A stretch of DNA of 34,100 bases from Candidatus Woodwardiibium gallinarum (GTDB taxonomy: Bacteria; Bacillota; Clostridia; Oscillospirales; CAG-382), in assembly GCA_904419545.1 (NCBI GenBank), contig CAJFRY010000020.1, positions 1 through 34,100 on the forward strand, given 5' to 3'. Numbering within the stretch: the stretch's first letter is position 1; the number at the start of each line of letters is the position of its first letter. The notes under the pieces were generated by a model that did not search any database, was not told the origin of the DNA, and was given only the letters and a program-made list of their open reading frames with translations. The position numbers were made by a program, and so were the translations under genes. Shown piece by piece: positions 2,982 through 33,863 of the stretch.

Positions 2982-3010
2982 ATTATACTTTGAAAATCAA
3001 CATTTGTCAA
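2982..3010 (-). promoter_or_regulatory. Consensus promoter of the unknown two-gene operon
   Basis: On the minus strand TTGACA (3010-3005), 17-base spacer, TATAAT (2987-2982). Both hexamers are perfect sigma-A consensus, so the operon should be strongly expressed unless repressed. Confidence 0.85.
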
Positions 3011-3085
3011 CAAAATTGGTCAATACAATGCAATTTTCCCTGTCCTTTAACTGTTAAGCGTTTTTTGCAAAAAAACGTTTTGGTA

Positions 3086-3113
3086 TTGACAAACGTAAAA
3101 AATTGTGTATTAT
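3086..3113 (+). promoter_or_regulatory. Promoter of the GHL10 lipoprotein gene
   Basis: TTGACA (3086-3091), 16-base spacer, TATTAT (3108-3113), 38 bases before the start codon. The region between this and the divergent promoter contains an A/T-tract inverted repeat (3059-3077). Confidence 0.7.
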
Positions 3114-3150
3114 AAAGTTTATAAAAGAATATCAGGGAAGGATGGATTGT

Positions 3151-6100
3151 ATGTTGAACACGCACAAAACCGTTGCACGTCTGCTTTCGATGCTTCTGGC
3201 CTTCTTCCTGCTCGCGGCAGCGCTTGTCGGCTGCGAAAATCCTTCGGAACAAATCGAAAGCGGTCCGGATGAAAGCGAACCCGTTCTGCTCCGAATCGGC
3301 AATGCGGAAATAACCGTTGCCGCTTACAACGCAGCGCCTGCGGGCAACGCAGCGGCATTGTTCGATTGCGGCTATCAAAACGACGGTGCCTATGAATACT
3401 TTGTCGACGCCGCCGAAGGACGCATCCTTGTCGCCGTCAAATCCGCACTTTCAGAAGATACGCGTACTTTTTCCGTACAGGAAATTTTGCGCGCAGGAGA
3501 AGGGGAATCCCTGTACATTCCGGTCAACGGCTTCGTACTCAGCCTGCCGGATGAAAACCTTCCCGACGAGCTCAAAGCCGGATCGAGTGTAACCGTGGAC
3601 GGCTATCAGCCGCCGGATTATGAGCGTACCGAAATCTGTGCCGTGCTCACAGAGGACCGCGAATATCCGCGCCGTGTCAACCTAATCGATCCGATAGAAA
3701 CGCCCGACAGTAATTCCGGGATTGTCTACATCACCGGCAAATACAAAACCGAACCGACTGTGCCGGCCGACTCTGTCGCGCTGCTGCTCGACGGCACGAC
3801 CGGCGGCCGCTTAACAGTCGAAAGCGTTTTGGAAGCAGGCAGTGTATTGGCGGAAAACAGTACTTATCTGCTTTTCTGCGGTGCATATAACGCAGGATTC
3901 GCCAAGACAATTTATCATGAAGGAGATAAACTGTATATGACCAGAACCGAAAATCTGTCCCGCTATGCGGACGATACAGCCGTGCGCATCCGCGACAAGG
4001 TATATAAGGTCGGCGCAACGGGACTGAATCCGGCCGAAATCACTGAAGACGGCGCCTATCTCTTTGATGGGGCATGCAGCCTGCTGGCTACGTCCGTACC
4101 GTCCGGCAAAGCTTTTCGGAGCTATGTTCTTTCGGACGGCAAGGTACTCTATGCTGCGGAACCGAATGAAAACATTATAATTCCGACAAATGCCGCCGTG
4201 CTTACACTCGTAGGTGATGCAGCGGCGGATGAAATCTCTGTCGGGTCCGATGCCGAAATGATTTTGTACGAAGCTCCTGAAATTCCAAATGCATTTGTAA
4301 AATTCGGCACTGAGATCTGCGCAGTCGATTCGATCAACACGCCGTCCGCAGGCGGTCTGGCGCTGTACGCACCGGGCAATGCCATCCATACGTTTGACGA
4401 GGGCAGCCTGTTTCTTGCCATCGAAAACGGAACCGTCGCTTCGGTCGGAACAGAACCGCCCGAAACCGACGGCTATGTGCTTTGCGCAAGCCCGGACGAC
4501 GGAAGGTGCGCATCATTGGCAGCTAAAGCTGTCGGCGACGGCGCCTGGGCGGTCACGGAGCCTGTCACCTACAGCCTGACGACGCTCCATTACACCCAGA
4601 TCAACGGCGATCGCTTTACAGATTATTTGGTAATTTACAACGGCGCGACGGGCAGCACGACAAATACGAATATTTACGGATATGAAATCATCGTATCGGC
4701 TGACGGCATTGCCGTTTCCGCTTCTCCTGCCGGCAATGCGACAATTCCGGAGGGCGGCTTTGTCGTTTCGGGTCACGGTGTCAATGCGACAGCGCTTCAA
4801 AACGCATATCGCCCGCTGGCCAAAGTTACCCTGGACAGAGCCAAAAAAACCGTTACCATTTTAAGTACGCCTGCGGAGACCCTGCAGACGGCAACCATCA
4901 ATTTGCAAGCCCAGCAAACCAGACTGCAGGAGGCCAAAAACGCGTTTTTAGACCTTTCCTATACCACTATTGACGAACGCATCGCCCGTGCGGAAACACT
5001 TCTGGACGAAGCAGCCTCCCTGCAGGAGGAGGGCGATACGGCACGCGCTTACATACGAGCCGTCAACGCGGCAGATCTGATTTCATCTCTCCATTCGGAA
5101 ATGTATGAATCCCACGCCGTAGAAAACCGTGCTGTATGGTATCGCTCCAACGAAAAAAGCGACGCGGAAGTTGAAGCGACCGTAAAACGTCTCGCTGCGA
5201 TGAACGTCAATGCCGTATATATTGAAACCTGGTACAACAGCCAAACCATCGGCATGACCGATATTGAGCTTATCAGCCACAATACCGGCGTACACGGCGA
5301 TTACGACGTGCTGGAGGGATTCATCCGAATCGGACATGAATACGGACTGGAAATCCATGCCTGGGTAGAAAATTTCTTTGTGGGCACAACGGCACAGTCG
5401 GAGGATACGCTCGCCGCGAAATCCAAGGATTTGGGCTGGCGCTGCGTCGACAAAAACGGTACTGACAATTTTCCGAACGAATATGGGAATTTTGTGTTTT
5501 TGAACCCATATAAACGCGAGTGCCGCGATCTGATTCTGGAAATCTATCGCGAGCTTCTTGAGAATTATGACCTCGACGGGCTGCATCTGGATTACATCCG
5601 CTTCAGCGAACCGCAGCGTAGCGATACAACGATCGACTTTGGCTACAACGAGGACATTATTGCGGGGTTTCAGGCTGCATACGATACCGATGTCGATCCG
5701 CATACGCTTGCACGCGGCAGTGAAATGTGGGTAAACTGGTGCAAATTCCGCGAGGACATCATCAATTCCTTTGTAAAGGAAGTTTACGACCTCGTGCGGG
5801 AGATCAATCCCGAGATCTGGCTCTCCGCCGCCTGCTATCCCGCATTTGAAACCGTGCATCAGTACAATTTCCAGAATTTCCGTAATTGGGTGGCCAATGG
5901 CTGGATGGATGAGATTTTTTCTATGTCCTACTCCATTGATCTCGCATATCCAATCGAAAACGCCTCCGCGTTTGTCAGGGCAATCGGAGACGATGCTTTC
6001 TATTCTGCCGGTTTATCTGCGTTCAGCACAACGGAATGTGATATTCTGCTCGGGCAGACCGACGGCTGCTTCCGCGCCGGCAGCAACGGCGTCAACTTTT

Positions 6101-21102: not shown

Positions 21103-21135
21103 GGGGAGGCCGCCGAAGCGGCTTCCCCGTTTTTT
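21103..21135. terminator. Terminator of the exporter operon, shared with the convergent gene
   Basis: GGGGAGGCCGC (21103-21113) pairs with GCGGCTTCCCC (21118-21128) with one G-T pair and loop CGAA, then G and six T. The convergent gene at 21134-22150 ends inside its T run. Confidence 0.88.
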
Positions 21136-22150
21136 ATGCTTCCAGCGCGCCGATCATCCCGCGGACCGCAGTAAGCACATCCGCATCATTTTTGCGGAGC
21201 CGGGCAATTGTCCACTGTGCAAGCATACAGAAGCCCGCTTCCTCGCATTCGAACAGGCGCTTGGACCAGTCGCGGCCGTCCGCTAAGCCGATGAGCGTCC
21301 ACTGGCAATTGTGCGAGCTATCGTAGGCGGCGTCGATGATGCGGCAGAAGGGATCCAATCTGCTGTCCTGCAGCTCGGTCGTAATGCGGTGTCGGAACAC
21401 CTCGGCCACGTTGTGACAATGATCAAAATTCCAGCCGATCTGCTTCATCCGCTCAAAACGAGCCCGCAGCTCTTCAAACGGTTTTTCGCGCAGTCCGAGG
21501 GGCCAGTAAGCAAACCGGCTTTCCATGTCCTCCCAGACTTCTTCCTCCAAAATAGATTGCAGTACGCCTTCCACCCGCCGCAGTCCGTCCAAAAGGGATC
21601 GGCGCCGCGCGGTTTTGCCACGCAGAAGGACGAGGTGGTCGACCTCATCCCACTCGGGCGGCCGGGACGGCGGCTGCTGCGCGCCGCCGGGCTCGGCCAT
21701 CAGCGGATGGTCGCCGTCATAACCGATGAAGACGACACAATTGTTTTTCGCATACGGCTTCAGGAACGCGATGGCCGGTGTTCCCGCGTCAATCGACTTC
21801 CGTAGCGCTGCGGGGAAGTCTGCTGCCGCTTTTTCGTACGCATAACCGGCCAGCTCCAAACAGAAATCTTCTGCAATTGTATAGGGGTTCTGCCGTGTGC
21901 CGTCGAAATTTTCGGAGAATGACGCGCGGCCGCAAAGCACTTCAAAATAAAAATACCAGTCTTCCTGAAGGCCGCCGGCCCCCTTACGGCAATTTCCGCA
22001 CCCGCTACATTTCTCGGAATCCCGCTTTTCACAGTCGTAATCATCAGGCGCGGAGCAATCTTCGAGATACGTATGCACCGCAGCGAGCGCCGAATGAAAG
22101 CCAAGATGTGAAAAAACCGTAAATGGCACTTGAAAATCCAGCTTTTTCAT
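21134..22150 (-). CDS. Uncharacterised protein, possible inactive C39-peptidase-like/BtrH-like N-domain
   Basis: A 338-residue soluble protein. Start 22150 is chosen because AGAGGGGA lies about 7 bases upstream; the longer frame from 22186 runs into a broken tRNA. The first half resembles BtrH-N/peptidase C39-like proteins: FHSALAAVHTYLE stands where the nucleophile helix would be, and NNCVVFIGYDGDH stands where the His strand (HAVVVxGYDD) would be, but Cys and His of a protease are not in those places. A Cys-rich insert (CEKRDSEKCSGCGNC, about residues 41-55) could bind metal. The C-terminal 150 residues are helical and unrecognised. Resemblance to C39 is my inference and needs a fold search. 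It is transcribed from the promoter at 22274-22302 through the tRNA-Leu fragment. Confidence 0.6.
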   Translation of the reverse strand: MKKLDFQVPFTVFSHLGFHSALAAVHTYLEDCSAPDDYDCEKRDSEKCSGCGNCRKGAGGLQEDWYFYFEVLCGRASFSENFDGTRQNPYTIAEDFCLELAGYAYEKAAADFPAALRKSIDAGTPAIAFLKPYAKNNCVVFIGYDGDHPLMAEPGGAQQPPSRPPEWDEVDHLVLLRGKTARRRSLLDGLRRVEGVLQSILEEEVWEDMESRFAYWPLGLREKPFEELRARFERMKQIGWNFDHCHNVAEVFRHRITTELQDSRLDPFCRIIDAAYDSSHNCQWTLIGLADGRDWSKRLFECEEAGFCMLAQWTIARLRKNDADVLTAVRGMIGALEA

Positions 22151-22180
22151 TGATAGTTCCCCTCTGTTCTTTCTGTGATG

Positions 22181-22229
22181 TCCCACTAGAACCTGAATCT
22201 AACGCGTCTGCCAATTCCGCCATACCCGC
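22181..22229 (-). pseudogene. 5' part of a truncated tRNA-Leu (anticodon CAG)
   Basis: On the minus strand: 5' acceptor strand GCGGGTA, D arm with the Leu-type GGCGGAATTGGCAGACGC, anticodon stem TTAGA/TCTAG with loop TTCAGGT (anticodon CAG at 22195-22193), and first bases of the variable arm TGGGA. The T arm and 3' acceptor strand are missing; the sequence changes to CATCACAG and, about 30 bases on, to the ribosome binding site of the downstream gene. It cannot mature into a tRNA. Confidence 0.8.
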
Positions 22230-22273
22230 ATTTTATGTTGTGGGCTGTTGATCCTTCGTCAGGCAGCTTTGCC

Positions 22274-22302
22274 ATTATACCATAGCAAAACGCAAATTTC
22301 AA
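22274..22302 (-). promoter_or_regulatory. Strong promoter of the tRNA-Leu remnant and downstream gene
   Basis: On the minus strand TTGAAA (22302-22297), 17-base spacer, TATAAT (22279-22274). With the tRNA broken, the only coding sequence it can serve is the gene at 21134-22150. Confidence 0.85.
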
Positions 22303-22374
22303 TTATAGGTATCGATAGTTATCGCGCCGAAAAAATGTCAAAGAAACTTTTTTAGATAAATTTGCCGCACCCTC

Positions 22375-22403
22375 TTGACAAACACATATGAGCGTGCTAT
22401 CAT
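22375..22403 (+). promoter_or_regulatory. Promoter of the metal-efflux operon
   Basis: TTGACA (22375-22380), 17-base spacer, TATCAT (22398-22403). The operator overlaps the spacer and the -10. Confidence 0.8.
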
Positions 22404-22423
22404 ATGAATAGAAAAACATATGA
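22385..22423 (+). promoter_or_regulatory. Candidate ArsR-type metal operator with a third half-site
   Basis: CATATGA (22385-22391) and TCATATG (22400-22406) form a perfect inverted repeat with an 8-base spacer over the promoter. A further CATATGA copy lies at 22417-22423. The position suits repression by the encoded ArsR-family protein, released by metal. Confidence 0.7.
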
Positions 22424-22440
22424 ATGGAGGCGCATCTGAA

Positions 22441-22800
22441 TTGAAGCACGACCACGTCGGCATACTGGAGAAGGTACGGCACGAGCTGCCGACCGACGAA
22501 CTGCTCTGCGATCTGTCCGATCTGTTCAAGCTGTTCGGCGACACCACGCGCATCAAGATTCTGTATTCGCTGTTCGAATCCGAGATGTGCGTCTGTGCCA
22601 TAGCCGATCTGCTGGGAATGACGCAGTCGGCCATTTCGCATCAGCTTCGGATTTTAAAGGATGCCAATCTTGTCGGCAACCGTCGGGAGGGCAAAACGGT
22701 TTACTATTTCCTCTCTGACGACCATGTGCGTACAATCATTGCACAGGGCTTTGAGCACTTGATCGAAGAATCAAATGAAATCGGCACCATTGAGAGATAG
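22441..22800 (+). CDS. ArsR/SmtB-family metal-sensing repressor (CadC/CzrA-like)
   Basis: A 119-residue winged-helix repressor. TTG 22441 is preferred because ATGGAGG lies 10 bases upstream; an ATG at 22420 lacks a site and falls in the operator. Two metal sites are readable. A CadC-type CVC pair follows ESEM in the alpha-3 region. The alpha-5 site has the exact D-x-H-x10-H-x2-E spacing (DDHVRTIIAQGFEHLIE) of SmtB/CzrA Zn sensors. The recognition helix is MTQSAISHQLRILK. It should repress the efflux operon it starts, and release DNA on binding Zn or Cd (established family behaviour). Confidence 0.93.
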   Translation: MKHDHVGILEKVRHELPTDELLCDLSDLFKLFGDTTRIKILYSLFESEMCVCAIADLLGMTQSAISHQLRILKDANLVGNRREGKTVYYFLSDDHVRTIIAQGFEHLIEESNEIGTIER

Positions 22801-32754: not shown

Positions 32755-33863
32755 GATGAGACTGTTTGCTTTTACGGTTGTACTTGTAGGTTTGTCAAAC
32801 AAGTTGGACAGGGAGAGATTCAAAGAAAGCAGCAAGTTTTTCTTTCGGAGAGAGCCAGCCAAGAGGGCGCAAAGGTAAGTCGTTGGAGCGGTTTTGGCGA
32901 GTAGTGAGCTGCGCACCAAAATCGGCAAGAGAGAAGAAACGGTGCGTGTTGTAGAAACGCTTCCGGCCTTCCCGATGGCTGCGTTCTACTTTGCCGTTGT
33001 GACGGGGGGATTAGCTTGTGCCGGATTCCAAGCCGTGCAGCGGTCAGTTCAAAGCGTGTGGGCAGCTCTCGTTTACTGTTGGAGAAGCGGTTGGTAAATT
33101 CAAATCCGTTGTCTGTCTGCACACACTCTACCCGCACACCGCGGCGCTTGAACCATGCTGCCATTTTTTCCAGGAAATCGGCGGAAGAATAGGTACTCTG
33201 TTCCGGGTAGGCGCCCAGATAGCGCAGGCGTGTGTATTCGTCGATTGCGGTATACGGATACAGGCGTTCATCCGGGTTTGCTAAATATTTCAGCGGCACC
33301 ACTTTCACATCCACCTGTACGCGCTGGCCGGGATACTGCATCTGCTCGTATGGTTTTGCTTTGTAAGGCGTTTTGGGTTTGGGCTGCGGGAACATTCCCA
33401 GTTTGCGCATGACCCGGAACGAGCTTTTCGGACAGCGGGTATACCCACGTTTTCGAAGCCGGTTCCAGAGTTCCACCATTCCCGGTGTTGGATTCCGTCT
33501 TCGCATATCTCGGATGAGCTTTAGTTCCGCCTCTGTATGCTGGTTTGGATGGTGATGCGGGCGTTTGGACTGACGGGCCAGAGATGCCACGCTTCCATCC
33601 CAGCGTGCCTTCCGGAAGTAGATATACGACCGGCTTTTGTTGTATTTCCAGCTCGCACGGCTTACGCCATATTTGGCTGCATACTGCATTAGGGATTGCC
33701 GATACCGCATGTCTTGTGTTATACTTTTACTCATAAGGGACAGGGCTCCTTTTTGGGTTATTTGGTGTTGCAACTTAACTATACCCTATGAAGGCTCTGT
33801 CCTTCTACTTTTTTATTTTCTATTCTTTCTCTACTGTCCAATTTCTATTGTGGCTCTACAAAA
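32746..33863 (-). mobile_element. IS481-like insertion sequence, damaged
   Basis: About 1.1 kb holding one DDE-type transposase gene. Terminal sequences share TTTTGT (32746-32751 and the complement at 33858-33863). A further TTGGACAG lies near both ends (32804-32811 and the complement 33834-33841). Exact ends are estimated, and no target duplication was identified. Confidence 0.55.
32795..33734 (-). pseudogene. IS481-like transposase, frameshifted
   Basis: It begins at ATG 33734 (MSKSITQDMRY), with AAAGGAG about 11 bases upstream. An N-terminal HTH region (about 10-110) is followed by an integrase core (QVDVKVVPL, IDEYTRLR, QTDNGFEF). After HKLI the frame is lost at a run of six C (plus strand 33004-33009), where about 11 bases appear deleted. 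The correct sequence resumes in another frame as RHNGKVERSHRE (the catalytic Glu region), then FFSLADFGAQL, and ends at a TGA at 32797-32795. The protein should be inactive. Confidence 0.8.

Follow-up and report, generated by a model that had tools for sequence, protein, structure and literature searches.

Architecture of the locus

The window analysed here is a stretch of 34,100 nucleotides from Candidatus Woodwardiibium gallinarum, which corresponds to the whole of contig C20 (CAJFRY010000020.1) in a draft assembly of 69 contigs. On its minus strand, a gene for a protein of 338 amino acids is preceded by a promoter and by the first half of a tRNA-Leu(CAG). Next to them lies a divergent gene for an ArsR-family repressor (22375-22800, plus strand), followed by one for a heavy-metal P-type ATPase; the TTGACA-17-TATCAT promoter of the repressor gene carries repeated CATATGA motifs, likely its operator. 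The features relevant to the tRNA-derived segment are the following:

22182-22303, minus strand: 122-bp partial copy of the tRNA-Leu(CAG) locus, 95% identical to G000:C27:4261-4382 of the same genome
22297-22302, minus strand: -35 box TTGAAA, the same in the intact tRNA locus
22274-22279, minus strand: -10 box TATAAT, after a spacer of 17, the same in the intact tRNA locus
22230-22267, minus strand: predicted transcribed leader before the tRNA half, with a start near 22267 placed from the -10 box
22182-22229, minus strand: 5' 48 nt of tRNA-Leu(CAG) by sequence match (5' strand of the acceptor stem, D arm, anticodon arm and the beginning of the variable arm)
22151-22181, minus strand: 31-nt spacer from the copy to the start codon, with a Shine-Dalgarno-like GAGGGG at 22164-22159
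21134-22150, minus strand: protein gene, 338 aa, start codon ATG at 22150
21103-21128, plus strand: predicted terminator-like hairpin between a convergent ABC-transporter operon and the 21134-22150 gene

The tRNA half and its intact counterpart

When the genome (2.32 Mb, 69 contigs) was searched with this region, a single other strong match was obtained, on contig C27, where an intact tRNA-Leu(CAG) of 87 nt, such as the first-pass annotation had suggested looking for, is indeed found (C27:4222-4308). The match covers 122 bp (22303-22182, minus strand), of which 116 are identical, with an E value of about 1e-50 in the same-genome search, far above chance. It comprises the promoter, the leader and the 5' 48 of the 87 nt of the tRNA, starting 1 nt upstream of the -35 box and ending in the variable arm. 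The reading of this stretch as the first half of tRNA-Leu(CAG), devoid of T arm and 3' acceptor, was thus well founded, since GCGGGTATGGCGGAATTGGCAGACGCGTTAGATTCAGGTTCTAGTGGG (22229-22182, minus strand) differs by a single base from the initial 48 nt of the intact gene. The limits originally given to the arrangement (22145-22302) were nearly right, although the copied segment proper spans 22182-22303, and positions 22151-22181 are the gene's own 5' side. Outside the copy the similarity vanishes: the adjoining 40-bp flanks are identical at 7/40 positions on either side, and BLAST of the window against C27 gave no match besides the 122 bp.

Six differences separate the two copies, five of them within promoter and leader (74 nt), with none in the promoter hexamers, and one within the tRNA part (48 nt). 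The latter is a C to T change at 22202 of the window copy, through which a C-G pair in the anticodon stem becomes U-G. In relatives this position is nearly always C, or T with A opposite, and therefore the window copy is the altered one.

No T arm or 3' acceptor strand follows after 22182. ARAGORN and Rfam call no tRNA at 22182-22229, as expected for a half, and report only a tRNA-Gly in the window. The 3' half of tRNA-Leu(CAG) is absent from the window when up to 3 mismatches are allowed, and no displaced copy of it was found elsewhere in the assembly, where the 3' half of the intact locus together with its flank returned, besides itself, weak matches located mostly at other tRNA genes. A nearby, intron-split 3' half had been named beforehand as evidence against a truncated tRNA; as it was found neither in the window nor displaced in the assembly, a split or intron-bearing tRNA is ruled out. 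Likewise, no partner with which the half acceptor stem could pair again (TACCCGC or either 6-mer) occurs in the leader or in the gene. The stretch 22182-22229 is, in short, a tRNA gene fragment: it equals part of a tRNA whose complete copy lies elsewhere in the genome, it has lost arms and it escapes the tRNA finders.

The downstream gene

The start codon of the 21134-22150 gene is fixed at ATG 22150 by its homologues, whose proteins share the same initial methionine. The product belongs to no Pfam or NCBIfam family. The gene is absent from 59 relatives and occurs in 3 other genomes among 391 of the class. In GTDB, homologues were located at ten loci, mostly of Clostridia or Oscillospiraceae and one of Anaerolineae, some of the contigs being the same as in the 3-genome set. 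This patchy spread suggests horizontal transfer, and the gene was probably acquired in this way. Its G+C content (57%, and 65% at third positions) is ordinary for the contig, which speaks against a very recent arrival from a genome of different composition. Carriage by a phage or plasmid was rejected, since neither the gene nor the junction matched any plasmid, phage or viral contig.

An AlphaFold2 model of the product, built from 5 sequences, reached a mean pLDDT of 75.6 and resembles chains of CtaG, AziU3 and CcbD over most of its length (Z 11-12, rmsd 4.5-5.7; best Foldseek E value, 7.9e-4). According to the model, a papain/C39-like N-terminal domain followed by a helical domain is predicted. 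Since designed bundles, too, match the helical domain with a similar Z, the whole-length matches hint at fold, not at function. A named enzyme family was considered and is not established for this protein, as the structural matches point only to a papain/C39-like fold and there is no Pfam or NCBIfam assignment. In this family (the window protein and those of L069, L070, L071, L072 and L073), many members share a C-x-x-C-G-N-C motif, which in the window protein is CSGCGNC at residues 48-54. Furthermore, where papain-like enzymes have the catalytic cysteine, at the start of the first long helix, the window protein has none. An Oscillospiraceae genome (L071) harbours two adjacent genes in tandem (1862-2965 and 2998-4155, both on the plus strand) that resemble remote paralogues of this family; each contains a motif of the C-x-x-C-G-x-C type.

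Promoter and predicted expression

The consensus promoter that the first-pass annotation had placed ahead of the gene is borne out: TTGAAA-17-TATAAT (22302-22274, minus strand) agrees with the consensus at 11 of 12 positions, is the top promoter-like match on the minus strand in the region and constitutes the only good sigma-70 match upstream of the 21134-22150 gene on its strand. Most likely, therefore, judging from the sequence, the copied tRNA promoter drives this gene. Transcription would start near 22267 on the minus strand and proceed through about 117 nt of leader, half tRNA included, into the gene and on to the hairpin between the convergent operons. Translation would then begin from the gene's own ribosome binding site, GAGGGG before ATG 22150, into which the tRNA fragment leads, as had been described. 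The 38-nt leader and the 48-nt tRNA fragment would form a passive 5' untranslated region, which is the simplest reading of the tRNA half.

Transcripts that run from a tRNA promoter into a protein gene have precedents in E. coli, such as thrU-tyrU-glyT-thrT-tufB and metY-nusA, whose tRNAs are whole and are released from the co-transcript by processing. Unlike them, only half a tRNA is present here, and from its sequence it should not be processable.

Origin of the arrangement

The duplicated segment brings a promoter directly upstream of the 21134-22150 gene, and the homologous genes at ten loci, all of them distant (27-40% identical), have no tRNA-derived leader. We consider promoter capture, that is, a partial duplication of the tRNA-Leu(CAG) locus upstream of a patchily distributed and probably horizontally acquired gene, as the best explanation, with a probability of roughly 70%. 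A recent illegitimate duplication would have copied the 122 bp, which begin right before the -35 box and end where the variable arm sets in. The copied piece would have been joined 31 bp ahead of the gene, the C27 locus being of the donor type; both the direction of copying and the mechanism of joining are inferred.

Regarding its timing, the best matches in 59 relatives, belonging to the same family or order, comprise essentially the tRNA part and begin for the most part at column 58 of the 122 or beyond; in the 29 relatives' loci that were fetched, tRNA-Leu(CAG) is intact and the leaders are unrelated. Since the leaders of relatives go unmatched, whereas the two in this genome are 95% alike, the copying took place after the split of the genus, which is represented by one genome. 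Synteny gave no polarity to the two loci: the tRNA-Leu(CAG) neighbourhoods in other genera have no chromosomal neighbours in common with either contig.

A different course of events, in which a complete second tRNA-Leu(CAG) once stood here and lost its 3' half, either to a deletion or when the gene was inserted, so that its promoter became fused to the gene, would lead to the same end product, and the copied unit does contain what a duplicated tRNA gene should bring along, its promoter and the beginning of the tRNA. However, neither the 3' half nor the 3' flank of the intact locus has left a remnant in the window, nor is there an intact copy beside the window's flanking genes in the fetched tRNA-Leu(CAG) loci of relatives, none of them close and all with poor synteny. 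We regard this course as unlikely, albeit worth keeping in mind. That a mobile element integrated site-specifically at the tRNA and left a 5' fragment behind is far more doubtful. The intact tRNA-Leu(CAG) has indeed the appearance of an attachment site, followed by a gene cluster that encodes ArdA, and the stretch directly 3' of it, first gene included, is 91% identical to the stretch after the same tRNA in another genus. Nevertheless, this apparent element joins the tRNA at its 3' end, where integration would duplicate a short 3' piece and could not by itself yield a 5' half together with 74 bp of promoter and leader. What is found here is the 5' end with its promoter. The intact copy is on another contig, the stretch between the two being unassembled, and no integrase was recognised by eye in the list of open reading frames of the window, in which there is only a transposase of the IS type with an rve domain (32820-33773). 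With integrated elements, a complete tRNA copy typically lies at one end and a partial copy at the other (PMC9897764) and, given that the joint on C27 is at the 3' end, integration is not supported as the direct cause. The first-pass annotation had proposed, as one of two readings, that an integration or a deletion fused a tRNA promoter to the gene; fusion by rearrangement is supported, in the form of a 122-bp partial duplication, while integration as its direct cause is not. An assembly artefact that joined two unrelated sequences is conceivable in a 69-contig draft, but the copies differ at six bases and overlap with neither flank, and hence no simple k-mer join explains the copy; a misassembly at this point is unlikely, and we give it hardly any weight.

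A possible regulatory role for the tRNA half

The E. coli thrS operator and the T-box riboswitches are mRNA leaders that mimic tRNAs and, in principle, the tRNA half might similarly have been kept as a regulatory leader controlling translation or transcription, as the first-pass annotation had proposed in its second reading. Selection could have acted, for instance, on a stabilising 5' structure or on a mimic coupling translation to tRNA supply, and a tRNA gene fragment would in that case have been turned into a regulatory 5' untranslated region. In favour of it, the tRNA part is nearly unchanged (1/48, compared with 5/74 in promoter and leader), a difference that is not significant (Fisher p = 0.40). 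Against it, a regulatory fold is rejected, for the leader folds no better than shuffled sequences (z +0.76 for 145 nt and -0.65 for 91 nt). A leader conserved at homologous genes is rejected as well, since none of the ten loci has a tRNA-like stretch upstream of the gene, and at these loci Rfam gave no plausible match, only a few sub-threshold ones, mostly to microRNA families, that amount to chance. In the window's own leader there is neither an RNA family match nor the unusually stable structure by which a T-box or tRNA-mimic leader would be recognised. Moreover, the 21134-22150 gene has no recognisable tie to leucine metabolism. In bacteria, leucine identity resides in A73, in the tertiary contacts between D and T loops and in the large variable arm (PMC9976931), and all of them are missing or cut in the fragment, which lacks the 3' acceptor strand, the T arm and the full variable arm and, with them, the parts for leucine identity and RNase P recognition. 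What the fragment shares with the thrS operator and T-boxes is therefore a tRNA-derived or tRNA-related sequence in the 5' untranslated region, but here there is no conserved structure, no link to a cognate amino acid or synthetase and no Rfam T-box match. Altogether we deem such a role, and selection for it, very improbable; the fragment presumably has no function at all.

Relation to known rearrangements

The kinds of event invoked here, partial tRNA genes and promoter capture by duplication, are already known. The prokaryotic partial tRNA genes described in one survey arise by element integration or by CRISPR spacer uptake (PMC9897764). The present case resembles them in being a truncated copy of a tRNA gene that is complete elsewhere in the genome, but differs in that a 5' half with its promoter is fused to a protein gene, with no recognisable integrated element. 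On the other hand, horizontally transferred genes are reported to be activated by spontaneous duplication and promoter capture, in work on tandem duplications selected in the laboratory (PMC11111574). Both cases would have in common an acquired gene that gains expression through a duplication joined by illegitimate recombination; here, however, the copy is dispersed, 122 bp long and found in a natural genome, and activation is inferred. This locus would provide a clean natural case in which a small dispersed duplication brought a copy of a stable-RNA promoter to a gene gained in a lineage, and in which a single genome allows both the donor-type locus and the copy to be read. The case also calls for caution in annotation, as half-tRNAs beside genes can be promoter baggage and not regulatory RNAs.

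Apparent mobile elements around tRNA-Leu(CAG)

Regarding mobile elements, the IS-type transposase with an rve integrase core in the window is encoded on the minus strand, near the contig end. The intact tRNA-Leu(CAG) (L039, G000:C27 1-4308; also L019) is the apparent attachment site of a mobile element, with an antirestriction gene of the ArdA-domain type downstream; the first gene 3' of the tRNA encodes 264 aa with no Pfam match. The contigs of many relatives stop within a few hundred bases on the downstream side of a tRNA-Leu match (for example G004:C6:333, G033:C26:368, G022:C30:111, G012:C36:166, G035:C69:135, G016:C13:42 and G052:C10:120), as would be expected if the 3' side of this tRNA were a variable integration hotspot that breaks assemblies.
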